The position numbers and the translations under genes are program-made. A model generated the notes under the pieces. It made no database searches. It was not told where the DNA came from and saw nothing but the letters and a program-made list of their open reading frames with translations. 64,000 nucleotides of DNA, from the NCBI RefSeq assembly GCF_003060865.1, contig NZ_CP028918.1, positions 3,026,001-3,090,000 on the forward strand, given 5' to 3'. Position 1 is the first letter of the stretch, and every line of letters starts with the position of its first letter. Of this stretch, positions 1 through 61,137 are shown piece by piece. Source of the DNA: Gemmobacter aquarius. GTDB taxonomy: Bacteria > Pseudomonadota > Alphaproteobacteria > Rhodobacterales > Rhodobacteraceae.

Positions 1-998
1 CAGCCCGCCAAAGGCCAGGGGAAGTGCGGTGCCAAGCATCAGGCCAAGCGCCACGCCAAACCCGGCAAGGGTTGCGATCTGCAACAAATAGATGCGGAAG
101 ATCAGCCGCCCCTCGGCCCCCAGTGTTTTCAGCGTGGCGATGGTGGCGGTCTTGCCGTCCAGATAGGCCCGCACCGCCGCCTGCACGCCAACCCCGCCGA
201 CCGCCAGCCCCGCGATGCCCACCAGCACCAGAAAGGCCCCCATCCGGTCGACGAACCGCTCGACCCCCGGTGCCGCGCGGCGGCTGTCGGACCAGCGCAT
301 CCCCTTGTCGGCAAAGGTCGCCTCGGCCTCGGTCTCCAGCGCCGCAAGATCGGTGCCCGCTGGCAGGCGCAAGCGGTATTCCGTCTCGAACAACGATCCG
401 GCTTCCAAGAGGCCCGACCCTTGCAATGCTTCGGTCGCCACGATGGTGCGCGGCCCCAGCGAAAAGCCGCCATTGGCCGAATCGGGTTCACGCAGCAGCA
501 CGGCCCCCAGCCGGAATTCCTGTGTGCCCAGCGTGAAGCGGTCGCCAAGGGCCAGCCCCAGCCGGTCGACCAGCACCTTGTCCATCGCCGCGCCCGGCAC
601 GCCATTCGCCACGGCCAGCGCCTCGGGCAGGGTTCCGGCCTCCAGCGTCACTGCACCCAACAGCGGATAGGCCCCGTCGACCGCCTTGATCTGCGTCAGC
701 GCGGAATCGTCCCCCACCACGGCCATCGACCGGAAATCGACGATCTGCGACACCGCGACAGCCCGCGCCTCCATCCATGCCCGCTCTTCCGGCGTGGCGA
801 AGCGATAGGTGAATTCCATCTGCGCGTCGCCGCCCAACAGCACCGCGCCCTGTTCCTCTAGCCCCGCCTCGATGGCCGACCGCACCAGCCCCACGGCAGC
901 AATCGCAGCCACCCCAGCGCAAGACAAGCGAGGAAGACGCGAAACCCGCGCAAGCCGCCGCGCAATTCGCGCCGCGCGATCCGCCACGCAAGGCTCAT
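1..998 (-). CDS. FtsX-like ABC transporter permease (YbbP type), 5' part, frameshifted as read
   Basis: This is the membrane subunit of the ABC exporter whose ATPase lies just upstream. The ATG is at 998 and overlaps the ATPase stop (TGA at 997-995). The start reads MSLAWRIARRELRGG, a typical opening for this permease family, followed by a first membrane segment. At the CCCC run 912-915 (GGGG on the coding strand) the frame hits a stop within about 20 codons. Adding one G restores ALGVAAIAAVGLVRS and an uninterrupted frame from about 911 to the window edge, with a long periplasmic MacB/FtsX-type domain and then hydrophobic segments near 240-170 and 90-1. The rest of the gene lies outside the window. 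The break is most likely a sequence error, because seven other genes here show the same kind of fault. Its substrate is not known; the family includes lipid and lipoprotein exporters. Confidence 0.85.
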
Positions 999-1666
999 GC
1001 CGCGACCCGCCCGTCTGCCAGTTGCACCACACGGTCACACCGCGCCGCAAGCTCGGCGGCGTGGGTCACCAGAACCAGCGTCGCCCCGTGCCGGTTGCGA
1101 AGCCCGAACAGCAATTCCATGATCGCCGCACCGTTCACCCCGTCGAGGTTTCCGGTCGGCTCGTCCGCCAGCAAAAGCGCGGGCCGGGGCGCCGCCGCAC
1201 GCGCCAAGGCAACGCGCTGCTGCTCGCCGCCCGACATCTGGCTGGGGTAATGGTCCATCCGCGACGCCAGACCCACGGCGCGCAATTCCGCCTCGGCGCG
1301 GGCAAAGGCATCTTCCGCCCCCATCAATTCCAGCGGCACGGCCACATTCTCCAAAGCGGTCATGGTCGGGATCAGGTGAAAGGACTGGAACACCACCCCC
1401 ATCCGCCCGCGCCGGAACCGCGCAAGCGCATCTTCGTCCAGCGCGGTCATATCCTGACCAAGCGCCATCACGCGGCCCGCCGTGGCGCGTTCCAGCCCGC
1501 CCATCAGCATGAGAAGCGAGGATTTGCCCGAACCCGAAGGCCCGACCAGCCCTACCGTCTCGGCAGCATGAACTTCCAGTGATATGCCCTTCAATATCTC
1601 GACCGGACCCGCATTTCCCTGCAAGGTCAAACGCGCATCTTCCAGCGCCAGAACGGTATCCGTCAT
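995..1666 (-). CDS. ABC transporter ATP-binding protein (YbbA/LolD type)
   Basis: This is a cytoplasmic ATPase of 223 residues that powers the adjacent FtsX-like permease. Walker A (GPSGSGKSS) is at residues 42-50, the Q-loop is in VVFQS near 93, the signature MSGGEQQR is at 144-151 and Walker B (LLLADEP) at 164-170. The H-loop is in LVTHA near the C-terminus. The start MTDTVLALEDARLTL is the usual family beginning. Its ATG (1666-1664) overlaps the ATG of the divergent esterase (1665-1667), so the two genes share the bases CATG. The arrangement of ybbA/ybbP-like genes divergent from tesA also occurs in E. coli. The stop overlaps the permease start, which implies translational coupling. Confidence 0.93.
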   Translation of the reverse strand: MTDTVLALEDARLTLQGNAGPVEILKGISLEVHAAETVGLVGPSGSGKSSLLMLMGGLERATAGRVMALGQDMTALDEDALARFRRGRMGVVFQSFHLIPTMTALENVAVPLELMGAEDAFARAEAELRAVGLASRMDHYPSQMSGGEQQRVALARAAAPRPALLLADEPTGNLDGVNGAAIMELLFGLRNRHGATLVLVTHAAELAARCDRVVQLADGRVAA

Positions 1667-2360
1667 GCAATTCGCCTCTATTCTTTCGGTCACATATGGC
1701 GCGTCGCGCCACATCCGCAATGTCACGATTGCGTTTCTGGCGCTCATCGCGGGCTTTGTGGCGCAGGCGCGGGCCGAACCGCTGACTTTGGTGGCATTCG
1801 GCGACAGCCTGACCCAGGGCTACGGTCTGCCCGATGGCGATGGCCTCGTGCCGCAACTTCAGGCATGGCTCAACGCCAATGGCGCCGATGTCACGGTGCT
1901 GAACGCGGGCGTCTCGGGCGATACCACGGCAGGGGGCCTGTCGCGCATCGCATGGACCCTGACACCTGAAGTGGACGCGATCATCGTCACGCTTGGCGGC
2001 AATGACCTGTTGCGCGGCATCGATCCGGCCGAAACCCGCCGCAACCTCGACGGCATCCTGACCGAGACCAAAGCCCGCAGCCTGCCCACGCTTCTGGTGC
2101 CCATGGTCGCCCCCGGCAATTTTGGCGCCGCCTACAAGACCGCCTTCGACGCGCTCTACCCCGACCTTGCCGTCACCCATGGCGCAACCCTCGCCCAACC
2201 CTTCTTCGCGCCCCTCACCGGTGGCAGCCAAGACCCCGCCGCCATGCAGCAATGGCTGCAAGCCGACGGTATCCACCCCAACAAGGAAGGCGTGGCCAAG
2301 GTGGTGGAAGTCCTCGGCCCCGAAGTGCTCGCCCTGCTGCAAACCCTACCCGTGAACTGA
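1665..2360 (+). CDS. tesA: GDSL/SGNH arylesterase (TesA family)
   Basis: This is a secreted or periplasmic esterase/lysophospholipase-type hydrolase of 231 residues. Block I is FGDSLTQG, with the nucleophile Ser at about residue 49. The oxyanion block GGNDLLRG and the C-terminal catalytic pair in DGIHPN are both present. The N-terminus has a hydrophobic stretch (AFLALIAGFVAQARA) ending in a plausible signal peptidase site before EPLTLVAF. The start chosen, MQFASIL, shares CATG with the divergent ABC ATPase. No clear Shine-Dalgarno is visible in front of it, so a slightly downstream non-ATG start is possible. The gene is followed by a short conserved motif and a strong stem-loop. Confidence 0.9.
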   Translation: MQFASILSVTYGASRHIRNVTIAFLALIAGFVAQARAEPLTLVAFGDSLTQGYGLPDGDGLVPQLQAWLNANGADVTVLNAGVSGDTTAGGLSRIAWTLTPEVDAIIVTLGGNDLLRGIDPAETRRNLDGILTETKARSLPTLLVPMVAPGNFGAAYKTAFDALYPDLAVTHGATLAQPFFAPLTGGSQDPAAMQQWLQADGIHPNKEGVAKVVEVLGPEVLALLQTLPVN

Positions 2361-2365
2361 CCCCT

Positions 2366-2388
2366 TTCACGCTGGCGCAAATATCCTC
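2366..2388 (+). repeat. Stop-proximal repeat motif, copy 1
   Basis: The motif reads TTCACGCTGGCGCAAATATC followed by CTC and starts 5 nt after the tesA stop. Related copies lie at 10150-10170 (minus), 22590-22610 (minus), 41291-41311 and 56599-56620. Its function is unknown. This copy is followed directly by the hairpin at 2397-2421. Confidence 0.6.
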
Positions 2389-2396
2389 GGGTGGGT

Positions 2397-2421
2397 CCGG
2401 GAGGGCGGAAAGCCCTCCCGG
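2397..2421 (+). terminator. Stem-loop downstream of tesA
   Basis: A perfect 10-bp stem (CCGGGAGGGC / GCCCTCCCGG) closes a GGAAA loop. There is no T tract, so it could be an intrinsic terminator of weak type or an RNA-stabilising hairpin. The element after sua5 at 56647-56677 has the same layout. Confidence 0.55.
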
Positions 2422-2497
2422 CGCTTTCAGGCTGCGCTCTGCTTGCATCTTCCGCGCTCCCGTCGGATCAATCACCGTCAATCCAAGGCCGCGCCCC

Positions 2498-3919
2498 ATG
2501 TCCCTGATCTCCGACCTCACCGCCCTCGTCGGCCCCGCCCATGTGCTGACCGGCGCCGATGCGACCCGCCTCGGCCATGACTGGACCGGCAATTACCGCG
2601 GCCAACCCATTGCCGCCGTCCGCCCCGCAAACACGGCCGAGGTCGCCGCCGTGGTCAAACTCGCAGCCGCCCGCAAGACCGCCGTCATCCCCGTGTCCGG
2701 CAACACAGGCCTTGTCGGCGGCAGCTTTACGGACGGCGGCCTTCTTTTGTCGCTCGAACGCCTGAACCGCATCCGCGACATCCGCCCCGAAGCCCGAATC
2801 GCCGTGGTCGAGGCGGGGGTAATCCTGTCGCGTCTGCATGACGCGGCCGAAGCGCAGGGCCTTTACTTCCCGCTCTGGTTCGGCGCGCGTGGCTCGGCGA
2901 TGATCAGCGGGGTGCTCTCGACCAACGCGGGCGGCTCGAACGTGCTGCGCTACGGCTCGACCCGCGCGCTTTGCCTCGGGCTCGAAGTCGTGCTGCCCGA
3001 TGGGCGCGTGCTCGACCTGATGTCGGAACTGCACAAGGACAATTCCGGCTACGACCTGCGCGATCTGTTTATCGGCGCCGAAGGCACGCTTGGCATCATC
3101 ACGGCTGCCGTGATGAAACTGGTGCCTGCGCCGCGCGCCCATGCGACCGCCGCCGTGGCGCTGGACACGCTGTCCGACGCGCTCACCCTGCTCAACCGCC
3201 TGCAATCCGCCAGTGGCGGGCTGGTCGAGGCCTTCGAATTCATGCCCGCAACCTACAGCCGCCGTCTGGCCGAAGTGCGCCCCGACCTTGGCCTTCCCTT
3301 CGCCACCATCCCGCCCGTCACCATCCTTGTCGAACTCGGCGCCACCGCCCCGATGCTGACCGACCCCGACGACAGCGGCGCAATCCCCCTGACCGCCCTT
3401 TTGCAAACCGCCCTTGCCGCGGCGCTGGAAGAAGGGCTGATCCATGACGCCGTGATCGCCCAGACCGAAACCCAGCGCCGCGCGCTTTGGGCACGGCGCG
3501 AGGCTGCGGCCGAGATCACCTTTGCCAAGCGCCCCTTCATCGATACCGACATCGCCGTCCCTCTCGACTGCGCCGAAGCCTTCCTGACCGCGATCCACGA
3601 CCGCCTGCCTGCCATCGCACCCGATGCCGAAACCCTGACGGTCGCGCATCTGGGCGATGGCAACCTGCATTTCACCGTCTTTCCCGCCACCGCCGACAAG
3701 GCGCTGCACGACCGCGTGGTCAGCGCCATCGAAGACGTTGTGCAATCCTTGCGCGGATCGTTCAGCGCCGAACATGGCGTGGGCCTGTCGAAGCTGAACT
3801 CGATGCAGCGCCGCAAAGACCCCGTGGCGCTCGATGTGATGCGGGCGATCAAGCACGCGCTTGACCCTGACGGCATCATGAACCCCGGCAAGGTGCTGCC
3901 CGCCGGGGCCGCCAAGTGA
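2498..3919 (+). CDS. FAD-binding oxidoreductase, D-2-hydroxyacid dehydrogenase type (GlcD/D2HGDH-like)
   Basis: This 473-residue flavoprotein belongs to the vanillyl-alcohol-oxidase superfamily. It probably oxidises a D-2-hydroxyacid such as D-lactate or D-2-hydroxyglutarate and passes electrons to a carrier. The N-terminal FAD_binding_4 domain shows PVSGNTGLVGGS and GAEGTLGIIT. The C-terminal FAD-oxidase domain shows the metal and substrate motif HLGDGNLHF, SAEHGVG, and the ending LDPDGIMNPGKVLP. The start MSLISDLTALVG is the conserved one; the open frame continues upstream through a stem-loop and is unlikely to be coding there. Its stop overlaps the GTG of the next gene (GTGA), so the two are probably co-translated. 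The exact substrate cannot be told from sequence. Confidence 0.88.
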   Translation: MSLISDLTALVGPAHVLTGADATRLGHDWTGNYRGQPIAAVRPANTAEVAAVVKLAAARKTAVIPVSGNTGLVGGSFTDGGLLLSLERLNRIRDIRPEARIAVVEAGVILSRLHDAAEAQGLYFPLWFGARGSAMISGVLSTNAGGSNVLRYGSTRALCLGLEVVLPDGRVLDLMSELHKDNSGYDLRDLFIGAEGTLGIITAAVMKLVPAPRAHATAAVALDTLSDALTLLNRLQSASGGLVEAFEFMPATYSRRLAEVRPDLGLPFATIPPVTILVELGATAPMLTDPDDSGAIPLTALLQTALAAALEEGLIHDAVIAQTETQRRALWARREAAAEITFAKRPFIDTDIAVPLDCAEAFLTAIHDRLPAIAPDAETLTVAHLGDGNLHFTVFPATADKALHDRVVSAIEDVVQSLRGSFSAEHGVGLSKLNSMQRRKDPVALDVMRAIKHALDPDGIMNPGKVLPAGAAK

Positions 3920-5106
3920 CCGTGTCCCACGTCCTGCGCGACCCGACGCTGCGGCTGATCGCCTTTGCCCTGCTGCTGATGGGGGCGCTGAACGCCTCGG
4001 TCTATCCCTACCAATCGCTTGTCGGGATCGAACGGATCGGCCTGTCGGAACCGCATTTCGCGCTTGTCCTCGTCATGGCCTCGGTCGTCGCCGTCACCGC
4101 CTCGGTGCTTTTGGGCATCCTTGGCGACCAGCGGGCCGGACGCCGCCGCATCGCGCTGCTTACCGCCTGTTCGGGTGCGTCAGGCGTTGCGCTGATGATG
4201 GTATCGCCCGGCGTCACCGCGATGATCCTGTGCCACGGGCTGCTCTTGCCCGTCGCCTCGTCGCTTTACGGCCAGTTGTTCGCCCTTGCCCGCCTTGCCC
4301 GCACCGAGGATGGCGCGGTGCGCGATGCGATCACGGGCACGGTCCGGTCGGCCATGTCGCTGTCCTTCCTTGCCATGCTGGTGTTCTGGAAATTTGCATT
4401 TGGCGCGGGCGTCGATGTCATGGCGGTCTATGTCTCGGCGCTTGTCGCCGCGGTCTGCATGACCTGCCTGCTGGCGCTGTTCTGGCCGAAGGATGGCGCG
4501 ACCGCGTGGAGCGACCGCCCGTCAGGCCTGAACCTGCGAGCCGCCATGTCGGAAATGGCGCGGCCGAAAATCCTGATCCGCGTGCTGTGCCTTGGCGCGG
4601 TGGCGGCGTCGGGCAATCTTTACATGGTGCTGACCACGCTGATTTTCGATGCAAGCCCGGTGCGCGACCAAGGCGACGTGGCACTTTATGTCGGCATGGT
4701 CGCAGGCTGGGAAGTGCCCTTCATGCTGCTTTTGCCGCGAATCGCGGGGCGGATGAAACGCCAGACCCTGCTGGCCTGCGGCGCGGCGCTGTACTGCGTG
4801 CATCTGGCGCTGTTGCCGGTCTTGGCCGACCATTGGTCGGTCTGGGTGCTGACGCTGTTTGCGGGGCTTGGCGGAACGGCGATCATCACCCTGCCGATCA
4901 CCTATTACCAGGACCTGCTCGCAGACCGCCCCGGCACGGCGGGGGCGATGCTTGCGGTGCAAAAACTGGTGGCCGACACGATGGCCGCATCGGCCTTTGC
5001 GCTTGGCACAACCCTCGGAGGGTTCACCCTGACCGCGGCGCTTGGTGCCACCGTCGCGCTGTCGGGCGCGGCGGGGCTGCTTTGGGTCGACAGGCGGCGG
5101 GCTTGA
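3916..5106 (+). CDS. MFS transporter
   Basis: This is a 396-residue inner-membrane transporter with about 12 hydrophobic segments and the loop LLGILGDQRAGRRR, a form of the MFS motif A between helices 2 and 3. It starts with GTG at 3916, overlapping the upstream dehydrogenase stop, so the two genes form a small operon. The context suggests uptake or efflux of a compound related to the hydroxyacid substrate, but that is inference only. It is convergent with hemE, with 7 nt between the stops. Confidence 0.85.
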   Translation: MTVSHVLRDPTLRLIAFALLLMGALNASVYPYQSLVGIERIGLSEPHFALVLVMASVVAVTASVLLGILGDQRAGRRRIALLTACSGASGVALMMVSPGVTAMILCHGLLLPVASSLYGQLFALARLARTEDGAVRDAITGTVRSAMSLSFLAMLVFWKFAFGAGVDVMAVYVSALVAAVCMTCLLALFWPKDGATAWSDRPSGLNLRAAMSEMARPKILIRVLCLGAVAASGNLYMVLTTLIFDASPVRDQGDVALYVGMVAGWEVPFMLLLPRIAGRMKRQTLLACGAALYCVHLALLPVLADHWSVWVLTLFAGLGGTAIITLPITYYQDLLADRPGTAGAMLAVQKLVADTMAASAFALGTTLGGFTLTAALGATVALSGAAGLLWVDRRRA

Positions 5107-5113
5107 GCGCCAC

Positions 5114-6144
5114 TCAGGCCGAGCGCACGGTTTCGATCATCAGCGCCACGTTGTCGGGGTTCGCATCCGGCGTGATGCCGTGGCCGAGGTTGAAGATATG
5201 CGGCCCCTTGCGGAAGGCTTCGACCACCGCGCGGGTTTCGCGCACCAAGGCCTCGCCCCCGTTACCATATGTTCGGGCGCAAGGTTGCCCTGCACGCAGC
5301 CGTCTTTCTGCACGTTCTCGGCCCCCCAAGCGGGCGTCACCGAATTGTCGAGCGCCACGCAATCCGCACCGGTCTTATTGGCGAACCCGATATAACCATT
5401 CCCTGCCTCGCGCGGGAAGGCGATGATGGGCAGGCCGGGGTGGCGCATCCGCAAGGCTGCTATGATGCGGGCGGCGGGTTTCACCGCGAATTCCTCGAAA
5501 TCCGCGCCCTTCAGCGATCCGGCCCATGAATCGAACAGCTTGACCACTTCGGCCCCTGCCTTGACCTGTTCCGAAAGGTAATCGACCGTGGCTTCGGTGA
5601 TCACGTCGATCAGCGCCGAAAACGCCTCGCGGTCGGTATCCTTCAGCGCATGCGCCTTGCCCTGATCTTTCGAGCCTTGGCCCGCGATCATATAGGTCGC
5701 CACCGTCCAGGGTGCTCCGGCAAAGCCGATCAGCGTGGTTTCCTTGGGCAGTTCGCGCGACAGAATCTTGACGGTCTCGTAGACCGGCGACAGCGTCTCG
5801 TGGATAAGATCTCTGGATTTCAGCGCCCTGACCTGCGCGAGCGAGGTCGTCGTTTCCATCCGCGGGCCTTCGCCGTTCTCGAACCACAGCTTCGGGCCAA
5901 GCGCCTGCGGCAACAAAAGGATATCGGCAAACAGGATCGCCGCGTCGAACCCGTAGCGGCGGATCGGTTGCAGCGTCACCTCGGCGGCGAGTTCGGGATT
6001 GTAGCAAAGCGACAGGAAATCGCCTGCAATCGCCCGCGTGGCGCGGTATTCCGGCAGGTAGCGCCCCGCTTGCCGCATCATCCAGATCGGCGGCGTCGGC
6101 AGAACCTCGCCCTTGAGCGCCCGCAGGATCGTCTTTTCCGTCAT
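5114..6144 (-). CDS. hemE: Uroporphyrinogen decarboxylase, frameshifted near the C-terminus as read
   Basis: HemE decarboxylates uroporphyrinogen III to coproporphyrinogen III in haem synthesis. The signature [12 protein letters not shown] lies near residues 23-34 and [13 protein letters not shown] follows at about 65. GAPWT and the FDSWAG motif are present. Reading from 6144 the protein is normal to [13 protein letters not shown], then leaves frame at the CCCCC run 5256-5260. One extra C (G on the coding strand) gives [16 protein letters not shown] and the expected end [16 protein letters not shown], stopping at 5114. The restored length is 343 residues, normal for the family. HemE is needed for haem, so a genuine null mutation is unlikely. 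It is divergent from hemC. Confidence 0.92.
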
Positions 6145-6215
6145 CCGTCTGCCCCTTTTCTATCGCCCCCATGGGTCGGGGTTGTGCGGCTGCTTGTCAA
6201 GAGTTGTCAGGCAAA

Positions 6216-6231
6216 CCTTACACATGTAAGG
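6216..6231. promoter_or_regulatory. Palindrome in the hemE/hemC divergent promoter region
   Basis: CCTTACA-CA-TGTAAGG is a perfect 7-bp inverted repeat. It sits 10 nt before the hemC ATG and 72 nt before the hemE start, inside the only 96 nt that separate the two genes. Two TTGTCA hexamers (6194-6199 and 6204-6209) could be -35 elements for hemC. The regulator is unknown. Confidence 0.45.
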
Positions 6232-6240
6232 CTTGCATTC

Positions 6241-7185
6241 ATGACCTATCCGCTCCCCTCCCCCGACCAACCGCTGAAAATCGGCACCCGTGGTTCCCCG
6301 CTCGCGCTGTGGCAGGCGCATGAGACGCGGCGCAGCCTTATGGCGGCGCTGAACCTGCCGAACGAAGCCTTCGAGATCGTCATCATAAAGGTGACGGGCG
6401 ACCAGATCCTCGACAAGCCGCTGAAAGAGATCGGCGGCAAGGGGCTGTTCACCCGCGAGATCGAAGAGGCGCTGCTCGCAGGCGGCATCGACATCGCGGT
6501 CCATTCGATGAAGGACATGCCGACCCTCCAGCCCGAGGGGCTGGTGCTCGACTGCTACCTGCCGCGCGAAGATGTGCGCGACGGCTTCGTGTCACCGCAG
6601 CACGGCGGGCTGGCCGACCTGCCGCAAGGCGCGGTCGTCGGCTCGTCGTCCCTGCGGCGCAGGGCGCAATTGGCACTCAAACGGCCCGACCTGAAGCTGG
6701 TCGAATTCCGCGGCAATGTACAGACGCGGATGAAAAAACTGGATGACGGCGTGGCCGTGGCGACCTTTCTTGCCATGGCGGGATTGAACCGGCTGGGCAT
6801 GGCCCATGTGGCCCGCGCGGCAATCGCCCCCGAAGAAATGCTACCCGCCGTGGCCCAAGGTGCTATCGGCATCGAACGCCGTATCGCCGATGCGCGGGTG
6901 GAATGGATGCTTTCGCAGATTCACGACGGCCCCACGGGTCTGCGCCTTGCCGCCGAGCGCAACTTTCTGCTGCGGCTTGACGGGTCGTGCGAGACGCCAA
7001 TCGCCGGTCTGGCGCTGCTCGACGGCGAAACGCTCTGGCTGCGCGGCGAAATCCTGCGCCCTGACGGCAGCGAATCGATCACCGGCGAACGGCGCGGTCT
7101 GGCGAGCGACGGCGCGGCGATGGGCCGCGATCTGGCCGAAGAATTGCTCGGCCGCGCCCCCGAGGGCTTTTTCAGCTGGCACTAG
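6241..7185 (+). CDS. hemC: Hydroxymethylbilane synthase (porphobilinogen deaminase)
   Basis: HemC polymerises four porphobilinogen molecules to hydroxymethylbilane, two steps before HemE. The 314-residue protein begins PLKIGTRGSPLALWQA and has GGKGLFTREIEEALL and AVHSMKDMP. It has SSSLRRRAQL, the FRGNVQTRMKKLDDG loop, and the dipyrromethane-cofactor Cys in LDGSCETP. The start MTYPLPS is close to the conserved domain; longer upstream reading would run through the hemE promoter and hemE itself. The length is typical of the family. Confidence 0.97.
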   Translation: MTYPLPSPDQPLKIGTRGSPLALWQAHETRRSLMAALNLPNEAFEIVIIKVTGDQILDKPLKEIGGKGLFTREIEEALLAGGIDIAVHSMKDMPTLQPEGLVLDCYLPREDVRDGFVSPQHGGLADLPQGAVVGSSSLRRRAQLALKRPDLKLVEFRGNVQTRMKKLDDGVAVATFLAMAGLNRLGMAHVARAAIAPEEMLPAVAQGAIGIERRIADARVEWMLSQIHDGPTGLRLAAERNFLLRLDGSCETPIAGLALLDGETLWLRGEILRPDGSESITGERRGLASDGAAMGRDLAEELLGRAPEGFFSWH

Positions 7186-7194
7186 GGGAAGCGG

Positions 7195-7992
7195 TCAGAC
7201 CAACCCGAGCTCGGCATCGCTGGCGATACGGTCGTATTTGTCGGTGGGCGGCATCGGCCGGTCGCGCCAATGCGGGGTGAAACTGAAGGATGATTTCGCC
7301 CGCCCCTCGGGCAGCGCCCCGTTACCCGCGCCCACGGCGTAATCGTAGTAAAGCTTCACGATCTCGTCATAGCTGACCTGCTGCGCCGCCGGATGGGCCA
7401 GACAGGCCGCGCGCCATTTCGCCACGCGGGCAAATTCGGGCGCCTCGGGCAGGGTGAAGCCTTCGTAATGGTCCAGAAACCAGAACCGCATCATCAAGGG
7501 CGTATAGACCGCCTCGGCCCAGCCGAAGCGGTCGAACAGGAAGGTGCCGTCGGGGTTGTAGAAGCGCAGCATGTCGTCAAGCCACGCGTAATGATCGAGC
7601 AGCGCCTTGCGCCGTTCTCCGGTCTTGGCGCGGTCACGGTTCATCACCATGGAATAACCCGCATTGCCGAATGCCCCTTCGCGGCTGGCAAAGAGCCGCT
7701 CGACCGCCCGTTCGTACGGATCGGCCCGCGCCACCTGCACCTGCGGATAGCGTTCGTCGAAATAGGCCATCAGGATCAGGCTTTCCTTCAGGATGCGGCC
7801 TTGCTCGTCTTCAAGCACCGGAAGCGCCGTGGTGCCCCGTGTCTTTTCCAACAGCCACGCCTCGCGCGGGCGGGTGATATCGACCACCTCGAACCGCACC
7901 GCATCGCGCATGCCCTTCAGGTCTAGCACGATCTCGACCCGCTGCGAAAAGGGGCAGACCGGAATATGGTAGATGACGGGCTGCTGGGACAT
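7195..7992 (-). CDS. Glutathione S-transferase family protein
   Basis: This 265-residue protein has an N-terminal thioredoxin-fold GST domain (IYHIPVCPFSQRVEIVLDLKG, with C13-P-F-S) and TTALPVLEDEQG, the cis-Pro loop that binds glutathione, near residues 54-65. KESLILMAYFDERYP follows, and an alpha-helical C-terminal domain completes it. The CPFS motif suggests a Cys-type (omega/beta-like) enzyme acting in thiol transfer rather than classic conjugation. It is convergent with hemC. The substrate is unknown. Confidence 0.85.
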   Translation of the reverse strand: MSQQPVIYHIPVCPFSQRVEIVLDLKGMRDAVRFEVVDITRPREAWLLEKTRGTTALPVLEDEQGRILKESLILMAYFDERYPQVQVARADPYERAVERLFASREGAFGNAGYSMVMNRDRAKTGERRKALLDHYAWLDDMLRFYNPDGTFLFDRFGWAEAVYTPLMMRFWFLDHYEGFTLPEAPEFARVAKWRAACLAHPAAQQVSYDEIVKLYYDYAVGAGNGALPEGRAKSSFSFTPHWRDRPMPPTDKYDRIASDAELGLV

Positions 7993-8070
7993 GGCTGGCC
8001 TTTCGATGCTGCGTGAAAAAGCCTAGATCGCACGGGCCTGCCAAGGCAACTGCCGAAGCCTGACGAATTT

Positions 8071-8116
8071 TGGAATTATTCCATTGAAAACTGCCGGAAT
8101 TGGAATATCAGTTCCA
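8071..8116 (+). promoter_or_regulatory. Two GGAA/TTCC operator-like palindromes before the SDR-iolG pair
   Basis: TGGAATTATTCCA (8071-8083) is a perfect palindrome. TGGAATATCAGTTCCA (8101-8116) is an inverted repeat with the form GGAA-N6-TTCC. GGAA-N6-TTCC is the motif reported for the RpiR-family repressor IolR of Sinorhizobium that controls inositol genes. The gene two positions downstream is inositol dehydrogenase. The sites lie 34-79 nt before the SDR start. No iolR gene is in the window. Confidence 0.55.
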
Positions 8117-8149
8117 TCCGCAAAACACCCCATTCGGGGCGGAGGAAAC

Positions 8150-8932
8150 ATGCCCGACCACAAGGATACGGTAGCCGTCATCACCGGCGGCGCACAGGGT
8201 CTTGGTCTTGCCATCGCGCAGGCGCTTTTGGCCGATGGTTGCGGCAAGATCATCCTCGCGGGCCGCAACGTGACCAAGGGGGAAGAAGCCGCCGCCGCCT
8301 TGCGCGAAACCGGTGCGGACGTGCGCTTTTTGCCCGCCGACATGGCATCGGTTTCGGATGCGACCGAACTTGTCGACCGCGCCCTGTCGCGCTTTGGCCG
8401 CGTAACCGCGCTGGTCAATTCCGCCGCCTCGACCGCGCGCGGCTCGATCCTCGACACGACACCCGCGGGCTGGGATGCGGCGATGGACACCAACGCGCGC
8501 GGCCCCTTCTTCGCGCTGCAACGCTTTGCCCAAGCGGCGGTGGCGGCGGGGCATTCGGCAACGGCGGTCAACATCTGCACCATGTCGTCGCATTGCGGGC
8601 AAAGCTTCCTTGCCGGCTATTCCGCCTCCAAGGCGGCGCTTGCCAACATCACCAAGAACAGCGCCAACGCGCTGCGGCAGCACCGCATCCGCGTCAACGG
8701 CATCAATGTGGGCTGGATGGACACGCCGGGCGAAGACACGATCCAGCGCGAGTTCCACAACGCCGACCCCGATTGGCTGGCAAAGGCCGAGGCGAAGCAG
8801 CCGATGGGCATGCTGGTGAAACCCGCGCATGTGGCGGGGCTTGCGTCCTACCTGCTGTCGGATGCATCCGGCGTGATGACCGGCGCGATGGTGGATTTCG
8901 ACCAGAATGTGAACGGCGCTTACGGCGAGTAA
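8150..8932 (+). CDS. Short-chain dehydrogenase/reductase
   Basis: This 260-residue NAD(P)-dependent oxidoreductase has the Rossmann motif TGGAQGLGLA (TGxxxGxG) at about residues 12-21 and NSAA, a variant of the NNAG motif. Ser in CTMSSHCG and the catalytic YSASK (Y-x-x-x-K) follow. The start MPDHKDT at 8150 is preceded by a good ribosome site, GGAGGA, at 8141-8146. It is the first gene of a likely two-gene operon with iolG (53 nt gap), so a role in inositol or related polyol catabolism is plausible but not proven. Confidence 0.87.
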   Translation: MPDHKDTVAVITGGAQGLGLAIAQALLADGCGKIILAGRNVTKGEEAAAALRETGADVRFLPADMASVSDATELVDRALSRFGRVTALVNSAASTARGSILDTTPAGWDAAMDTNARGPFFALQRFAQAAVAAGHSATAVNICTMSSHCGQSFLAGYSASKAALANITKNSANALRQHRIRVNGINVGWMDTPGEDTIQREFHNADPDWLAKAEAKQPMGMLVKPAHVAGLASYLLSDASGVMTGAMVDFDQNVNGAYGE

Positions 8933-8985
8933 GCCCATAGGGACAAACCGTCCCCGGGCAGGGGGCAAGAGTGGAGACGACAGAC

Positions 8986-9987
8986 ATGACGATCAGATTC
9001 GGACTTCTCGGCGCAGGCCGCATCGGCAAGGTCCACGCCAAGGCGATCACCGGCGACGCAAACGCGCGCCTTGTGGCCGTGGCCGATGCCTTCCCCGCTG
9101 CCGCGACAGCCATCGCCGACCAGTACGGCTGCGAGATCCGCAGCATCGACGCGATCCTCGGCTCGAAAGACATCGACGCCGTGGTGATCTGCACCCCCAC
9201 CGACACCCACGCCGACCTGATCGAAGCCTTCGCCCGCGCCGGCAAGGCGATCTTCTGCGAAAAGCCGATCGACCTGTCGCTTGACCGCGTGAAAGCCTGC
9301 CTGAAGGTGGTGCGCGATACGAAAGCCGTGCTGATGGTCGGCTTCAACCGCCGCTTCGACCCGCATTTCATGGCCGTCAAAGCCGAAATCGCCAAGGGCA
9401 CCATCGGTGCGGTCGAAATGGTCACCATCACCTCGCGCGATCCGGGCGCGCCGCCGGTCGAATACATCGCCCGCTCGGGCGGCATCTTCCGCGACATGAC
9501 GATCCATGATTTCGACATGGCCCGCTTCCTGCTGGGCGAGGAAGTGGCCGAGGTTTCGGCGCAGGCCTCGGTCCTCGTCGACCCCGCAATCGGCAAGGCG
9601 GGCGATTACGATTCGGTGCAGGTGATGCTGCGGACCGCGACGGGCAAGATGGCCGTCATCTCGAACTCGCGCCGCGCTACCTATGGCTATGACCAGCGCA
9701 TCGAAGTGCATGGCTCGCTTGGTGCCGTATCGGCCGAGAATCAGCGCCCGGTGTCGATCGAAGTGGCCAGCGCCACAGGCTACACCCGCCCGCCGCTGCA
9801 TGATTTCTTCATGACGCGCTACACCGAAGCCTATGCCGCGGAAATCGCCAGTTTCATCAATGCCATCGCGGGCAAGGCAGCGGCCACTCCGTCGGGCGAA
9901 GACGGGATGCTTGGCCTTGCACTGGCCGAAGCGGCGCTGAAATCGGTTGCCGAAGGACGCACGGTCAAGGTTTCGGAAATTCTCTGA
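8986..9987 (+). CDS. iolG: Inositol 2-dehydrogenase (Gfo/Idh/MocA family)
   Basis: The enzyme oxidises myo-inositol to 2-keto-myo-inositol with NAD+. The 333-residue protein opens with the nucleotide-binding motif FGLLGAGRIGKVHAKAI and has the family motif CEKPIDL (the EKP lysine) near residue 95. The C-terminal domain contains GGIFRDMTIHDFDMARFL, whose D-x-x-x-H-D pattern is the catalytic signature. ATG 8986 has GGAG at 8973-8976; an in-frame GTG at 8971 is less likely. It is followed by a strong terminator. Confidence 0.88.
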   Translation: MTIRFGLLGAGRIGKVHAKAITGDANARLVAVADAFPAAATAIADQYGCEIRSIDAILGSKDIDAVVICTPTDTHADLIEAFARAGKAIFCEKPIDLSLDRVKACLKVVRDTKAVLMVGFNRRFDPHFMAVKAEIAKGTIGAVEMVTITSRDPGAPPVEYIARSGGIFRDMTIHDFDMARFLLGEEVAEVSAQASVLVDPAIGKAGDYDSVQVMLRTATGKMAVISNSRRATYGYDQRIEVHGSLGAVSAENQRPVSIEVASATGYTRPPLHDFFMTRYTEAYAAEIASFINAIAGKAAATPSGEDGMLGLALAEAALKSVAEGRTVKVSEIL

Positions 9988-10008
9988 CCCGGTCCGGATA
10001 AGCTTTCG

Positions 10009-10535: not shown

Positions 10536-10714
10536 GGGAAAATTGCTCCGTCAACGTCGAGGATTCGGGCATGATTGTCCGATACGACAATATAATCCAA
10601 TTCCGCCCCGCGCAAAGGGGGTCGCGCAAATCCCGCCGATACCTGTGCCTTGAACGGCTTGCACGGGCCTCTGTGTCGCGGCATCAAGGGCGGGTAACGA
10701 ACGGAACGCGTTTC

Positions 10715-13531: not shown

Positions 13532-13534
13532 CGC

Positions 13535-44102: not shown

Positions 44103-44800
44103 TCAGCGAAACCGGTCCATCATTCGCCCCGGCAAATCGTCAGGCACCGTGGGCACGCGCCATTTCTCCATCAGCTTCGCCGGGCCTGCAAGCAGCGCCT
44201 TTCCCAAAGCGTTGTCCTTGATCGCCGCCTTGGCCTTTTCGATCTGCATCACATCCCCGATCCGCCGGTCGAGGAAATCCCACGTTGCCTGATTGCCAGT
44301 CGAATCGTCGCCCAGCCAGTAAAGCACCGTCGAGCCATAGACCGCCGAAAGCGTTGCCCGCTTGGAATACCAGCTAAAATCGCGCGCGGTGTCACCCAGC
44401 GCGACCCAGATCGCATCTGCCGTGCCCCAGATCAGCTTGGCTCCTTCAGCCGCATGCTGTGGCAGGGCGAAAAGGGTGGTGCCGCGGCGCACCAACTCGC
44501 GCTCGCCGACGGCCTCGAGCCGCAAACGCACCGCATGGGCGACCTTGTCACGAAAGCGCATCGCCGAAAGGTCACTTGCCCCCAGCGCGTCGCGCATCAT
44601 CCGGTCGCCGCGCAGATGGTAGGCCACGGCCAGATCGATCCCACCGCGCGGGAACAAAGCCCGCGCGAGGGCAGGCGCACAACCCGAATCGGCAATCGCC
44701 GCCCGCAGCGTCGCCTCGGACCAGCCGTCAAAGGGACATGCACCAAGGCGGCATCCAGAACCGCTTCTTTCCAGTCGATCGCAGCCGTATAGGTCGTCAT
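44103..44800 (-). CDS. COQ9 family ubiquinone biosynthesis protein, frameshifted as read
   Basis: COQ9 binds lipid intermediates and helps the COQ7-type hydroxylation in ubiquinone synthesis. From ATG 44800 the protein reads MTTYTAAIDWKEAVLDAALVHVP, then breaks at the GGG run 44733-44735. One extra G (C on the coding strand) joins it to FDGWSEATLRAAIADSG and the remaining domain, including WYSKRATLSAVYGSTVLYWLGD and the conserved end. The restored length is 232 residues. It is divergent from rpsU, an arrangement also seen in related genomes. A base-calling error is likely. Confidence 0.88.
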
Positions 44801-44841
44801 CGCCAGTCTCCTTCGCTTTGGTGGACAAACCCCGTCGCAGT

Positions 44842-44849
44842 TGTTATAG
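44842..44849 (+). promoter_or_regulatory. Possible -10 region of rpsU
   Basis: TGTTAT (44842-44847) follows TTGGTG (44818-44823) by 18 nt in the 105-nt gap between COQ9 and rpsU. Confidence 0.4.
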
Positions 44850-44905
44850 GGCGCTCGCCTGCACTCTCACGTGCAACTTTAACCTAGGAAGGTGGTGACA
44901 ACCAC

Positions 44906-47994: not shown

Positions 47995-48569
47995 CTATAG
48001 ATAGCGCACCATCGTATGGGTGACGCTATAGCCGAACACCAGGCCAAGCGGCCCGACAGGGGTGCTGTGGTCCAGCACGAAGCCGCGCCTTTCGTAAAGC
48101 GACCGGGCGCGGGGGTTGGTGTCCACCACATCCAGCCTGACCGTGTTGAAGCCCCGCGCTGCAGCTTCCGTGCAGATCGCCTCGATCAGGGCCGAACCGA
48201 CGCCACGCCCCCGCGCCTGTGGCTGGACGCAAAGACCGTCGATCAGGAACAGCCCGGTTTCGCCTTCCCCGCCCGCAAGCTGCATCACGCCGCTGCGCCA
48301 AGCCCCGCCAAGCCGCCCGTAGACCTGCCGCATGTCGTCGGGCGTCCCCCCGCGAAACTGCCCGCATCGGATTTGAACCCGATCAACCCGGTCAGGCCCC
48401 CGTCCCCCATGGCGCAGATGCATTGGTCGGGCCTTATGACCCGCTCGACATAGGCGAGTGCCAGCCGGTCAGGCCCCAGGACGCGCCCGAGCTTGCCGCC
48501 GAAAGCCTGCCAGTACAACGCCGCCGCAGCGGTGCGGTAGGCTTCTGGCAGACCGCGTACCATCCGCAT
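47995..48569 (-). CDS. GNAT-family acetyltransferase, frameshifted as read
   Basis: From ATG 48569 the frame reads MRMVRGLPEAYRTAAAALYW and continues to SDAGSFAGG. It breaks at the CCCCCC run 48346-48351. One extra C (G on the coding strand) continues as TPDDMRQVYGRLGG and includes the acetyl-CoA motif VQPQARGRGVGSALIEAI (Q/R-x2-G-x-G/A) and NPRARSLYERRGFV. The restored protein has 191 residues. The ATG overlaps the DUF429 stop (TGATG), so it belongs to the mob operon. The substrate is unknown. Confidence 0.85.
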
Positions 48570-49444
48570 CAGACCTGCTCCAGCGCGGCGAGCAAGGCGG
48601 CCTCGTGCCCTGCGCCCAGTATCCAGCCTTCCTCGGCAGCGGCGGCGTCGGGCAGCGCGAAAAGTGCGTCCAGTTGGCCCGCCTGCGCCAGACGCCACAA
48701 GGCCCGCGACAAAAGCCGCACCTGTGCCGCGTCCTTGATGCCGTCTTGCAGGGCGACGACCCGCGCAAGAAGCGAGGGGTAGATTTCAGCCAGAACCACG
48801 CTAGCAGATGCAACTTTTTGCGGTTCGTCGAAGGGCCAGACAGCCACCGCTGCCCCCTGCGCCAGACGATGCACCAAGGGCAGACCCATCAGAACCTGAC
48901 TGCCGACCGACCCCGTGGTGTAAAGTTTCCAGACCGGCTGTGCGCGCGGCACGCGGCATTCGACCGCCCGCCGCTCGGGCAGGCCGAGTGCCGCGTAATC
49001 GACCGCTTTGGTCGCCGGCAAAGCGGTAAGCGCAAGCGAGGCCGGACGCCCCCAGAACGGCCCCGCCCCGCCGAAGCGCCGGTTCACCGCATCGGCCACC
49101 TGAAAGCGGTCGTTGCGATTGTCCGGCCCATCGGTGATCTGCGCTGCCATCCACGCCCAAACCGCGCGGGCGCTCGCCTGCCCTGTCAGGCGCGCGGCAA
49201 AGCCTGCCGGATAGCCCAGAGCGAAATCGAAGCCCGCCAGAACCCGTCGCCCCGCCGCCTGTTCGCCGGCCAGAAACCGGCGCAACGCGGCTTCGGCCGC
49301 TGCCCGCGTGCGATAATACCCGACGGTTTCCCCGCCCGCGCCCGCAGCGCCGATCCAGATCGCATCGCGAGACGGTCTGGCGGGCGAAGGCGCAGATGCC
49401 GCCGACCAGTCAACGACCACGACCGTGTCGAAAGGCCCGCTCAC
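48569..49444 (-). CDS. DUF429-like protein encoded with mobAB
   Basis: This 291-residue protein begins MSGPFDTVVVVDWSAAS and has DAIWIGAA and VLAGFDFALGYPAGFA, a pattern of spaced Asp residues that resembles an RNase H-like fold (DUF429). Its middle has WGRPASLALTALPATKAVDYAALGLPERRAVE. I do not know its function. Its start overlaps the mobB stop and its stop overlaps the acetyltransferase start, which suggests a link with molybdenum cofactor use, but that rests only on position. Confidence 0.65.
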   Translation of the reverse strand: MSGPFDTVVVVDWSAASAPSPARPSRDAIWIGAAGAGGETVGYYRTRAAAEAALRRFLAGEQAAGRRVLAGFDFALGYPAGFAARLTGQASARAVWAWMAAQITDGPDNRNDRFQVADAVNRRFGGAGPFWGRPASLALTALPATKAVDYAALGLPERRAVECRVPRAQPVWKLYTTGSVGSQVLMGLPLVHRLAQGAAVAVWPFDEPQKVASASVVLAEIYPSLLARVVALQDGIKDAAQVRLLSRALWRLAQAGQLDALFALPDAAAAEEGWILGAGHEAALLAALEQV

Positions 49445-49950
49445 CCGCCAGGCCGCGCTTGGGCAAGCCCGACTTCGCCAAGGATAAAATCCGCGACCGC
49501 TGCGGTATCGTTCAGGTCGAGCACGGGCACCGGCAGGGACAAGGGCTCGTCTGTCGCAACCGCCCGCACCAAGGCGTCTTGCGGCTGGATCAGGTCATGC
49601 CCGGTCACGCGGCGCCAGACCTCGACCTTGGCATGGGGATCGCGTTTGTAGCCTTCGACCAGCACCAGATCGACCGGTTTCATGCGCGCCAGAACCTCGG
49701 CCAGTTCGGGTTCCGGCCCGCGATGTTCGTGCAGGATCGCAAAGCGATGGGCCGAGGCGAGCACAACTTCGGATGCCCCCGCCGCACGATGCCGCCACGT
49801 GTCCTTGCCCGGTTGATCAAGGTCTACATCGTGATGCACATGCTTGACGGTCGACACCGTGAAACCGCGCCCTGTGATTTCGGCCACAAGCCGCTCCATC
49901 AGGCTGGTCTTGCCCGAATTCTTCCAGCCGATGACGCCATAAACCTTCAT
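49441..49950 (-). CDS. mobB: Molybdopterin-guanine dinucleotide biosynthesis protein MobB
   Basis: This 169-residue GTP-binding protein assists MobA in making the guanine dinucleotide form of Mo cofactor. The P-loop is GWKNSGKTSLMERLV at residues 7-21, followed by STVKHVHHDVDLDQPGKDTWRHRAAGA, typical of MobB, and VDLVLVEGYKRDPHAKVEVWR. It overlaps mobA by 4 nt. Confidence 0.94.
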   Translation of the reverse strand: MKVYGVIGWKNSGKTSLMERLVAEITGRGFTVSTVKHVHHDVDLDQPGKDTWRHRAAGASEVVLASAHRFAILHEHRGPEPELAEVLARMKPVDLVLVEGYKRDPHAKVEVWRRVTGHDLIQPQDALVRAVATDEPLSLPVPVLDLNDTAAVADFILGEVGLAQARPGG

Positions 49951-56597: not shown

Positions 56598-56598
56598 T

Positions 56599-56620
56599 TT
56601 CACGCTGGGTCAAACATCCG
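56599..56620 (+). repeat. Stop-proximal repeat motif, copy 5
   Basis: TTCACGCTGGGTCAAACATC followed by CG begins 1 nt after the sua5 stop. It is followed by GGTCCGGGG repeats and the hairpin at 56647-56677, the same order as after tesA. Confidence 0.55.
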
Positions 56621-56646
56621 CGGGTAGAGGTCCGGGGGTGAGGGGT

Positions 56647-56677
56647 CCGGGGAGAGGGCAAACCGCCCTCTCCCCGG
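56647..56677 (+). terminator. Hairpin after sua5
   Basis: CCGGGGAGAGGGC-AAACC-GCCCTCTCCCCGG is a perfect 13-bp stem with a 5-nt loop. No T tract follows. Confidence 0.6.
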
Positions 56678-56770
56678 CCTTTCCGCCTGTTCGACCGATT
56701 TAGAACCGTTCCAACATTGACAGAAGCCCCGTGCGGGCGCATATCCGACTGGAATAGTCGGAGAAGCCCA

Positions 56771-57331: not shown

Positions 57332-57348
57332 ATACCGGGGCCTTACCG

Positions 57349-57987
57349 ATGCGGACGCTTCTGGCTTTCGACACCTCGGCCGCGCATTGCGCGGCCGCGT
57401 TGCTCTGCGGCGACCGGATCGCCGCCGCCTGCTTCGAACCGATGGATAAGGGTCAGGCCGAGCGTCTGATCCCGATGCTCGAAGAACTGCTTGCAAGCGC
57501 CGGTCTGGCGTGGCCGGACCTTGACGCCCTTGCCGTGGGCACCGGACCCGGCAATTTCACCGGCGTCCGGATCGCGGTGGCCGCTGCACGGGGGCTGTCG
57601 ATGTCCTTGGGGATTCCGGCGATCGGTGTGACCACGTTGGAAGCGCGCGCCTACGGCCTGCCCCGCCCCCTGACGGTGGTCGAGGATGCGCGGCGGGGCG
57701 AGGTCTACGTACAGGACTTCTACCACACCTCTGACGAAGCGCGGGTGACGACCCTCGCCGCCTTGCCCGTGGAATGTGACTTTCTGCGTTTTGCAGGCAC
57801 CTCCGCCGATGCCGCCGCTGCTGCCACAGGCGGCATGGTGCTGGCCCAGCCCGTCGCGCTGGCCGAAGCGATTGCCCGCCTTGCCGCCACCCGCATCGGC
57901 ACGGGCCAGCCGCGCCCCGCGCCGTTCTACCTTCGCGGCGCGGATGCCGCCCCGCCCAGCGACCCGCCGCCGGTGATCCTGCCGTGA
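57349..57987 (+). CDS. tsaB: tRNA threonylcarbamoyladenosine biosynthesis protein TsaB
   Basis: This 212-residue ASKHA-fold partner of TsaD is needed for t6A modification. It begins MRTLLAFDTSAAHCAAALL and has PMLEELLASAGLAWPDLDALAVGTGPGNFTGVRIAVAAARGLS, the TsaB hallmark, and VEDARRGEVYVQDF. It ends in GTGA, overlapping rimI. The gap to the nfu gene is 17 nt. Confidence 0.94.
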   Translation: MRTLLAFDTSAAHCAAALLCGDRIAAACFEPMDKGQAERLIPMLEELLASAGLAWPDLDALAVGTGPGNFTGVRIAVAAARGLSMSLGIPAIGVTTLEARAYGLPRPLTVVEDARRGEVYVQDFYHTSDEARVTTLAALPVECDFLRFAGTSADAAAAATGGMVLAQPVALAEAIARLAATRIGTGQPRPAPFYLRGADAAPPSDPPPVILP

Positions 57988-58387
57988 CGCCCGATGACCT
58001 TGCCCGCCTGCACGCCCTGTCCTTCACCACGCCCCGCCCGTGGAGCAGCGCCGAATTCGCCGACCTGCTGACGCGCGGCTTTCTGCTGACCGAGGGCGAC
58101 GCCTTCTTGCTTGGCCGCGTGATCGTGGACGAGGCCGAGCTTCTGACAATCGCCGTCCCGCCCGACCAGCGCGGCAGGGGGCGGCAAAACGTCTCGTCGC
58201 GGCCTTTCTGGAACAATCGCGCGCCCGCGGGGCGACCGGCGCCTTTCTCGAGGTGGCGCAAGACAATGCCCCCGCACGGCGGGTCTATGCCCAGGCGGGC
58301 TTTGCCGAATCCGGCGGCAGGCGCGGCTATTACCGCAGCCCCGAAGGCCGCTATGTCGACGCCATCGTGATGACTTGCACGCTCTGA
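57984..58387 (+). CDS. rimI: Ribosomal protein alanine N-acetyltransferase RimI, frameshifted as read
   Basis: This GNAT enzyme acetylates the S18 N-terminus. From GTG 57984 the frame reads MTPDDLARLHALSFTTPRPWSSAEF and AELLTIAVPPDQRGRG, the acetyl-CoA motif start. It then breaks at the GGGGG run 58177-58181. One extra G continues as AAKRLVAAFLEQSRARG, LEVAQDNAPARRVYAQAGFAESGGRRGYY, and the normal end. The restored length is 134 residues. The tsaB-rimI overlap is conserved in many bacteria. A base-calling error is likely. Confidence 0.92.
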
Positions 58388-58453
58388 CGCCAAGCGAACG
58401 GCTATAGTTTGATCATAAGACCGGACGCGCCCCGCGCCGCTCGCAAAGAGGTG

Positions 58454-58483
58454 TTGACCCCTCCACCGGAATCCGTCCTAAAT
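58454..58483 (+). promoter_or_regulatory. Promoter of the nucleoside transporter operon
   Basis: TTGACC (58454-58459) and CTAAAT (58478-58483), spaced 18 nt (17 if the -10 is CCTAAA), lie 77 nt before the BMP gene. The -35 is one base from consensus. Confidence 0.6.
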
Positions 58484-58559
58484 TGCCCACGAACCGACCG
58501 GCACGACGAAGCGGGCGGGACAAGAATCGCACAACAACCGACACAACCGGGAGACACCC

Positions 58560-59555
58560 ATGACCCTGATGAAAACGCTTCTCGGCGCAGCGGCCACGCT
58601 GGCGCTGACCGCAGGCATTGCTGCCGCCGATCCGGCGATCATCTACGACCTTGGCGGCAAGTTCGACAAATCCTTCAACGAAGCCGCCTTCGGCGGTGCG
58701 GAAAAGTGGGCCAAGGAAACCGGCGGCACCTACAAAGAACTGGAAATGCAGTCCGAAGCCCAGCGCGAGCAGGCCCTGCGCCGTCTGGCAGAATCGGGTG
58801 CAAACCCCATCGTCATGACCGGCTTTGCCTTCGGTGACGTGCTTAACACCGTTGCGCCCGATTTCCCCGACACCAAATTCGCGATCATCGACATGGTGGT
58901 GGAACAGCCCAACGTCAAATCGGTCGTCTTCACCGAAGATCAGGGCAGCTACCTTGTCGGCATGATGGCGGGCCTCGCGTCCAAGACCGGCACCGTCGGC
59001 TTCATCGGCGGCATGGACATTCCGCTGATCCGCCGCTTCGGCTGCGGCTATGCCCAGGGCGTTGTCGCCGCGAACCCGGATGCCAAGGTCGTCCTGAACA
59101 TGACCGGCACCACCCCTGCCGCATGGAACGATCCGGTCAAGGGCGCAGAACTTGCCAAAGGCCAAAAGGCGCAAGGCGCGGACGTGATCTATGCAGCGGC
59201 CGGCGGCACCGGCGTGGGCGTCCTGCAGGCGGCGGCTGACGAAGGCATCCTCGGGATCGGCGTCGACAGCAACCAGAACGGCATGCACCCCGGCAAGATC
59301 CTGACCTCGATGATGAAGCGCGTCGACGTTGCCGTCTACAACGCCTTCATGGAAGGCGCCGACCTTGCGCCGGGCATCAACGTGCTCGACCTCAAGGCCG
59401 ATGGCGTGGGCTATGCGATGGATGAAAACAACGCCTCGCTGGTGACGCCGGAAATGAAGGCCGCGGTCGATGCGGCTGCCGAAAAGATCAAATCGGGCGA
59501 GCTGGTCGTTCACGATTACATGTCGGACAACACCTGCCCGGCGGCAACGTTCTGA
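58560..59555 (+). CDS. BMP family ABC transporter substrate-binding protein
   Basis: This 331-residue periplasmic binding protein of the Bmp/Med family typically binds nucleosides. It has a signal peptide (TLLGAAATLALTAGIAAA), then the family features YDLGGKFDKSFNEAAFGGAEKW, ESGANPIVMTGFAFGD and DQGSYLVGMMAGLASKTGTVGFIGGMDIPLIRRFGCGYAQG. GTGVGVLQAA is also present. GGGAG precedes the ATG. Its stop overlaps the ATPase start (TGATG). Confidence 0.94.
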   Translation: MTLMKTLLGAAATLALTAGIAAADPAIIYDLGGKFDKSFNEAAFGGAEKWAKETGGTYKELEMQSEAQREQALRRLAESGANPIVMTGFAFGDVLNTVAPDFPDTKFAIIDMVVEQPNVKSVVFTEDQGSYLVGMMAGLASKTGTVGFIGGMDIPLIRRFGCGYAQGVVAANPDAKVVLNMTGTTPAAWNDPVKGAELAKGQKAQGADVIYAAAGGTGVGVLQAAADEGILGIGVDSNQNGMHPGKILTSMMKRVDVAVYNAFMEGADLAPGINVLDLKADGVGYAMDENNASLVTPEMKAAVDAAAEKIKSGELVVHDYMSDNTCPAATF

Positions 59556-61137
59556 TGCCATCTGTGGCAAGCACTTCGGGGCGGCAGGCAACTGCCGCCC
59601 CCTTTGCGTCGCCCTATGCGATCGAGCTGCGGGGTATTTCCAAAGCCTTCGGCCCGGTTCAGGCGAACAAGGATATTTCAATCGCCGTGCCGCGCGGCAC
59701 CATCCACGGCATCATCGGCGAAAACGGCGCGGGCAAGTCCACGCTGATGTCGATCCTTTACGGTTTCTACCGCGCAGATTCGGGTGAAATCCTGATCAAC
59801 GGCACCCCCACCACCATCCCCGACAGCCAGAGCGCCATTCGCGCCGGTATCGGCATGGTGTTCCAGCACTTCAAGCTGGTGCAGAATTTCACCGTTCTCG
59901 AAAACGTCGTCCTCGGCGCGGAAGAGGGCGCGATGCTGGCCGGATCGCTGGCCAAGGCCCGCCGTGCGCTGGCAGAGCTGAGCCGCGAGTATGAACTCGA
60001 CGTCGATCCCGACGCGCTGATCGAAGACCTGTCGGTCGGTCACCAGCAGCGCGTCGAAATCCTCAAGGCGCTTTACCGTCAGGCCGATATCCTGATCCTC
60101 GACGAACCCACCGGCGTGCTGACACCGGACGAGGCCGACCACCTGTTCCGCATCCTGCGCGGGCTGCGCGACCAAGGCAAAACCGTCATCCTGATCACCC
60201 ACAAACTGCGCGAGATCATGGAGACGACCGACAACACCAGCGTCATGCGGCGCGGCACCATGGTCGGCACGGTCAAGACCGCCGAAAGCAGCCCCGAGCA
60301 ACTGGCCGAACTGATGGTCGGCCGCAAGGTACTGCTGGAAGTGGAAAAGGACGCGCCCAAGACCGGCAAGACCGTGCTTTCGGTGCAGAACCTGCATGTG
60401 CGCGACGAACACGGCGTCGAACGGCTGAAAGGCGTCAGTTTCGACATCCGCGCCGGCGAAATCCTCGGCATCGCGGGGTGGCGGGCAACGGGCAGTCGGA
60501 ACTGCTGGAAGCCCTTGGCGGCATTGCCAACGCTACCGGACGGGTCGAGATGAACGGCATGGCACTTCCGCTTTCCGGCGCCTCCGCCAATGGCCAATCG
60601 CGGCGTGATGCGGGCATCGCCCATGTGCCCGAAGACCGCCAGCACCTTGGCCTGATCATGGATTTCGAGGCGTGGGAGAACGTGGCCTTCGGCTATCACA
60701 ACGCGCCCGAATACCAGAAGAACGCCCTTTTCATGGACAATGACGCGCTGCGCGCCGACACGGCAAGGAAGATGGAGCGTTTCGACGTTCGCCCGCCGAT
60801 CCCCACGCTGCCTGCGAAATCCTTTTCCGGCGGGAACCAGCAAAAGATCGTCGTGGCGCGTGAAATCGAGCGTAACCCGGACCTGTTGCTGATCGGCCAG
60901 CCCACGCGGGGCGTCGATATCGGGGCTATCGAATTCATCCACAAGCAGATCGTGGCGCTGCGCGATGCGGGCAAGGCCATCTTGCTCGTGTCGGTCGAAC
61001 TGGACGAAATCATGTCGCTGTCGGACCGCATCGCCGTGATGTTCGACGGGAAGATCATGGGGTTCCGCGACCCCGAAACCACCAACGAGCGTGAACTTGG
61101 CCTGCTGATGGCGGGCGTGACCGGGGACAAAGCCTGA
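59555..61137 (+). CDS. Nucleoside/sugar-type ABC transporter ATPase (two domains), frameshifted as read
   Basis: This tandem ATPase is like YufO/RbsA. The first half has GENGAGKSTLMSILYG, DLSVGHQQRVEILKAL and LILDEPTGVLTPDE. The second starts near GVSFDIRAGEILGIAG, where the frame breaks at the GGGG run 60475-60478. One extra G gives VAGNGQSELLEALGGI and the rest with SFSGGNQQKIVVAREI and the degenerate second site. The restored protein is 527 residues. It drives nucleoside uptake with the two permeases. A base-calling error is likely. Confidence 0.92.

Follow-up and report, generated by a model that had tools for sequence, protein, structure and literature searches.

Eight genes in the window, by which we mean the whole 64,000-nucleotide stretch of DNA analysed here (bases 3026001–3090000 of the first contig of a 4.2-Mb, four-contig genome), each lack one base at a G or C run, where the reading frame shifts by −1. 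Judged by comparison with related sequences, the eight broken genes are almost certainly an ordinary data error and not biology, and we are highly confident that run-length undercalling in the assembly consensus is the best account of the eight frame breaks. Undercalled homopolymers are a known and well-described type of artefact, and we see no new biology here.

Eight frame breaks at runs of G or C

Our reference set consisted of 1049 proteins, taken from open reading frames predicted in eight genomes of the same genus, and tblastn served to align them with the window. Every one of the eight sites had a relative's protein matching two adjacent frames on the same strand, and in all eight broken proteins the two halves were similarly conserved; in a repeat of the search, every hit at these sites gave a net shift of −1 modulo 3. 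Synteny with the relatives was patchy, so genes were located singly in the same-genus genomes and their surroundings fetched. DNA alignments, in which a few rows are paralogs, showed the window to be one base shorter than the aligned relatives at seven sites; at dnaX the position of the missing base is not fixed, because the Gly-rich linker varies in length among relatives. This comparison with the same genes in relatives had been proposed in the preliminary description, whose eight named frame breaks were all present, each a net −1 against same-genus proteins. The coordinates and letters that it gave (runs of three to seven G or C) agreed with our direct reading at all eight sites, and its claim of deletions throughout, with no insertions, matches eight shifts of −1 in eight. 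For one window protein, the best named matches among those listed were to Pseudotabrizicola algicola, Fuscovulum, Tabrizicola and Rhodobacterales MAGs (75–77% amino-acid identity), which points to a Rhodobacteraceae-like bacterium.

Five of the breaks lie in genes on the minus strand. A MacB/FtsX-type ABC permease with Pfam matches to MacB_PCD and FtsX is broken near its N-terminus at CCCC 912–915 (net −1 in six of six hits); the gene extends beyond the window start, and all six aligned relatives were one base longer at the site. The gene for uroporphyrinogen decarboxylase, hemE (about 5117–6144), breaks at CCCCC 5256–5260 with a net −1 in nine of nine hits, and TIGR01464 and PF01208 match on its two pieces. 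ccoN, encoding cbb3 oxidase subunit I (about 19765–21362), breaks at CCCCC 21129–21133 (six of six hits at net −1), and a profile search matched TIGR00780 to its main piece and not to the N-terminal piece. In a COQ9 family gene (about 44106–44890; TIGR02396, PF08511) the break is again near the N-terminus, at GGG 44733–44735; the single hit that spans both halves has a net shift of −1, the missing part is a short N-terminus, and the extra base is present in seven of seven aligned relatives. A GNAT acetyltransferase (about 47998–48572) is interrupted at CCCCCC 48346–48351, with net −1 in seven of seven hits and PF00583 on the downstream piece only.

The other three genes are on the plus strand, and in each of them all six hits agreed. 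dnaX, for DNA polymerase III gamma/tau (about 38543–40302), breaks in its Gly-rich linker at GGGGGGG 39740–39746 (net −1 modulo 3), and NF006585 matched both of its pieces in the profile search. A rimI-like acetyltransferase of the GNAT type (about 57984–58381) breaks at GGGGG 58177–58181, also with net −1 modulo 3; both pieces match TIGR01575, under its cut-off. Finally, the gene for an ABC transporter ATPase (about 59555–61125) carries its net −1 at GGGG 60475–60478, with PF00005 on both pieces.

Further break candidates in the window at 10676, 42248, 45103 and 50601 had one to three poor references each and were dropped. A candidate at 49442 was dropped as a two-gene arrangement also found in the relatives G002, G003 and G011. 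The minus-strand genes concerned (48572–49444 and 49441–49950) overlap by four bases and match a single fused protein of about 450 amino acids in G007, G008 and G010; the pair has the appearance of a natural gene fission. Eleven in-frame stops were seen in alignments with identities of 60% or more, which together cover 57,359 bases of the window, and none of them had good matches on both sides. Separately, the hemE segment (about 5100–10000) is apparently inverted with respect to its neighbouring segment in relatives: in G003, hemE lies on the opposite strand relative to the 1–5091 block, and 8322–9988 matches G007 in the orientation opposite to that of 32–2329.

Run length and the missing base

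The preliminary description held that each gene loses exactly one G/C. That one base is missing stands; that it was the run's own G or C is probable, and at most sites we infer this identity, because the gap falls at a third codon position where the relatives themselves differ (the permease, ccoN, COQ9, the acetyltransferase, the ABC ATPase and possibly hemE). If the lost base is assigned to the run, losses among coding G/C runs in the window come to 0 of 1322 at length 3, 1 of 356 at length 4, 2 of 85 at length 5, 3 of 14 at length 6, 1 of 2 at length 7 and 1 of 1 at length 8, and the apparent dose-response with run length depends on that assignment. The observed run lengths at the eight sites sum to 39. 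In a simulation that placed eight deletions at random in coding sequence, 12,000 times over, this sum was never reached at any of three tolerances, not even when each deletion was credited with the longest run up to 6 bases away. With losses and gains equally probable, finding all eight to be losses has a probability of 0.004.

No A/T run in the window was broken, though a general fault in run length could have affected such runs too; this is uninformative and does not establish G/C specificity, because only about 1.6 such breaks would be expected at the same rates. Coding G/C runs of at least 6 number 24.6 per 100 kb in the window, 37.6 elsewhere in the genome and 41.4–82.3 in the relatives. 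We set this scarcity of long G/C runs aside as weak proof: with the lost bases restored, the window has about 30 per 100 kb and is still the lowest.

Breaks elsewhere in the genome

Similar breaks occur elsewhere in the genome. We ran a detector, a reference-free coding model trained on relatives, on the window, on 996 kb of other stretches and on relatives. Within the 57 coding kb of the window it recovered six of the eight sites and missed two near gene starts. Outside the window, 19 calls were examined; 17 of the 19 break zones contained a G/C run of at least 4, and 18 calls were −1 and one was +1, a sign that by itself is weak evidence there because ATGA-type gene overlaps also read as −1. 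Not among the 19 are rows that had been marked as natural and rows in which a start codon sits at the stop (YifB, 3429015 and others were retained for their long tails), nor the weak rows at 3006033, 2878639, 3178540, 3259934, 3405087, 3415964, 3416276 and L252:972. By reading, 14 of the 19 were judged likely, or about one per 60 kb over 849 coding kb; the calls at 2813253, 3214531 and 3215008 and those in L271 and L276 were not counted as likely, since they resemble ordinary junctions or are ambiguous. The rate of one break per 8 kb put forward in the preliminary description thus holds in the window and not assembly-wide. Indels at other G/C runs of the assembly, which it had suggested counting, probably do occur (about 14 likely breaks in 996 kb), at a lower density than in the window.

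Both halves match one NCBIfam family in three of the broken proteins outside the window, a FadJ-like protein, YifB and an O-acetylhomoserine sulfhydrylase; both halves of an IS3 transposase match Pfam rve, and FliF has a profile match on its first half only. These breaks, in the FadJ-like gene, YifB, the O-acetylhomoserine sulfhydrylase, fliF and two transposases, lie in stretches L249, L252, L279, L283, L268 and L284; those in the transposases may be natural. At L278:11212–12493, a protein with no match in Pfam or NCBIfam apparently has its frame broken twice in a row, by −1 each time, at G runs that lie some 80 bases from each other.

How this genome compares with its relatives depends on the filter. 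Under a strict filter, with no start codon at the stop, there were 5 calls in 57 coding kb of the window, 13 in 867 kb of the rest of the sample and 2 in 1108 kb of the eight relatives; strict calls of all kinds in the relatives numbered 14, and 11 of those had a start codon where the stop is. The contrast rests on this stricter filter: under a looser one, G003 gave 11 calls in 340 coding kb versus 3 in 180 kb and 9 in 322 kb for this genome outside the window, so that per kb the loose calls of G003 are not fewer, which we count against undercalling. Examined singly, the loose calls of G002, G003 and G007, 14 in all, are nevertheless unlike those in this genome: 13 have tails of at most 22 bases, nine shift by −1 and five by +1, and five of the break zones contain a G/C run. 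Also counted against undercalling is a homology scan of the flanking stretches, which found only two weak breaks in the roughly 84 kb covered.

The window is a bad patch within a mildly flawed assembly. In the window, 5 of 17 runs with an original length of at least 6 were short; in the rest of the sample about 10 of 324 were (Fisher p 0.0004). This value is post hoc, since the window was chosen for its breaks and the count outside it came from reading the break zones. Set against about 65 windows of equal size, the local excess is suggestive. A dip in read depth or a gap in polishing would account for it. A low read depth around the replication terminus was not adopted as the cause, since the GC skew of the sampled stretches places no clear terminus at the window. 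In the same skew data, C1 from about 2886001 to 2986000 (L245–L249) forms a block of positive GC skew flanked by negative-skew stretches, which suggests an inversion or a misjoin.

Discussion

We considered whether something other than a lost run base might lie behind the breaks. A context-dependent error, such as one near a modified base, might have dropped a neighbouring base instead. In the permease, ccoN and the ABC ATPase the gap takes the third position of a Gly codon that is followed by GTG, where the relatives' bases differ, and the available text of PMC8011154 lists modified bases among the causes of nanopore error. However, contexts vary at the remaining sites, and loss climbs steeply with run length (in a calculation that takes the lost base to be the run's own). 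According to the accessible part of PMC12007338, deletions in a published assembly from nanopore data tended to involve the same base as the run. We therefore regard this alternative as unlikely. Less likely still are real slippage frameshifts in the sequenced strain, whether from a mutator or from gene decay. The breaks are present in the sequence as given, and they cluster locally, but all eight shifts have the same direction, they are unaccompanied by stops, and both halves of the broken proteins are similarly conserved. Furthermore, hemE was found at a single place in the genome and ccoN as a single match, and both are broken, while mutS (a 955-aa frame) and mutL (a 620-aa frame) are open. 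Undercalling, as the preliminary description had proposed, gains support from the common −1 direction, the conserved halves, the broken single-place genes and the open mutS and mutL, together with the position of all eight breaks at G/C runs, the steep rise with run length and the like breaks elsewhere in the genome.

Programmed slippage in dnaX is known from E. coli and Thermus, and the dnaX break in the window sits where those genes slip. There is a very slim chance that the dnaX break alone is real, a linker slippage site giving two products, a short one like gamma and a long one like tau; it is just as improbable that the dnaX run was correctly read and that G/C runs in the linker serve as a slippage site genus-wide in varied form, the other seven breaks being errors. 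If true, dnaX slippage would yield short gamma-like and long tau-like clamp-loader subunits. The break comes where the ATPase part ends. As read, the 0 frame of dnaX encodes 459 aa, and shifting by −1 at the 7-G run opens a further 186 codons. The frame was parsed in five of 11 same-genus relatives, and G/C runs of at least 5 are present in the linker of all five, with a 9-C run in G004; G005, outside those five, carries an 8-G run at the dnaX linker. Yet the linker runs vary in base and place among relatives, and a GC-rich genome would be expected to have G/C runs in a linker rich in Gly and Pro. What this break shares with dnaX of E. coli and Thermus is a homopolymer close to where the ATPase part ends. 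The differences are that here the 0 frame leads to the short product, that the matching frames of the relatives continue through without a change of frame, and that the same lesion is found in seven unrelated genes, for which no such mechanism is known.

Under the undercalling account, the length of a G or C run would have been under-counted in the consensus at eight places in the window, leaving one base too few at each, as happens with long-read data that have not been corrected with accurate reads; the eight genes are presumably intact in the living organism. The same fault would run through the sampled genome at a lower rate, with the window locally worse, perhaps where read depth is shallow or polishing incomplete. 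Gene tables and pathway predictions drawn from this assembly will split or miss real genes, among them the only hemE and the only ccoN found, and also dnaX. Overall quality figures (completeness 100, contamination 0.32) give no warning of the frame breaks, because the damage is patchy.

The published behaviour of nanopore data is similar. Within the text available of PMC8486125, nanopore homopolymer accuracy falls above length 5, or above length 4 in high-GC bacteria, with C and G runs worse than A and T and with lengths tending to be underestimated. Homopolymer-length errors are described as the commonest residual errors in the portion at hand of PMC8812927, and homopolymer indels that escape polishing as shifting frames in that of PMC8011154. 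The nanopore assembly of PMC12007338 had, in the excerpt available, mostly false deletions linked to homopolymers, more of them at A/T; it differs in this from our window, where only G/C runs were seen to be affected, and the low rate outside the window is also unlike long-read homopolymer errors. In the remaining respects the eight breaks resemble the homopolymer errors of long-read assemblies: they are single-base deletions at homopolymers, they are commoner at longer runs, they split genes, and they can be detected by comparison with relatives.
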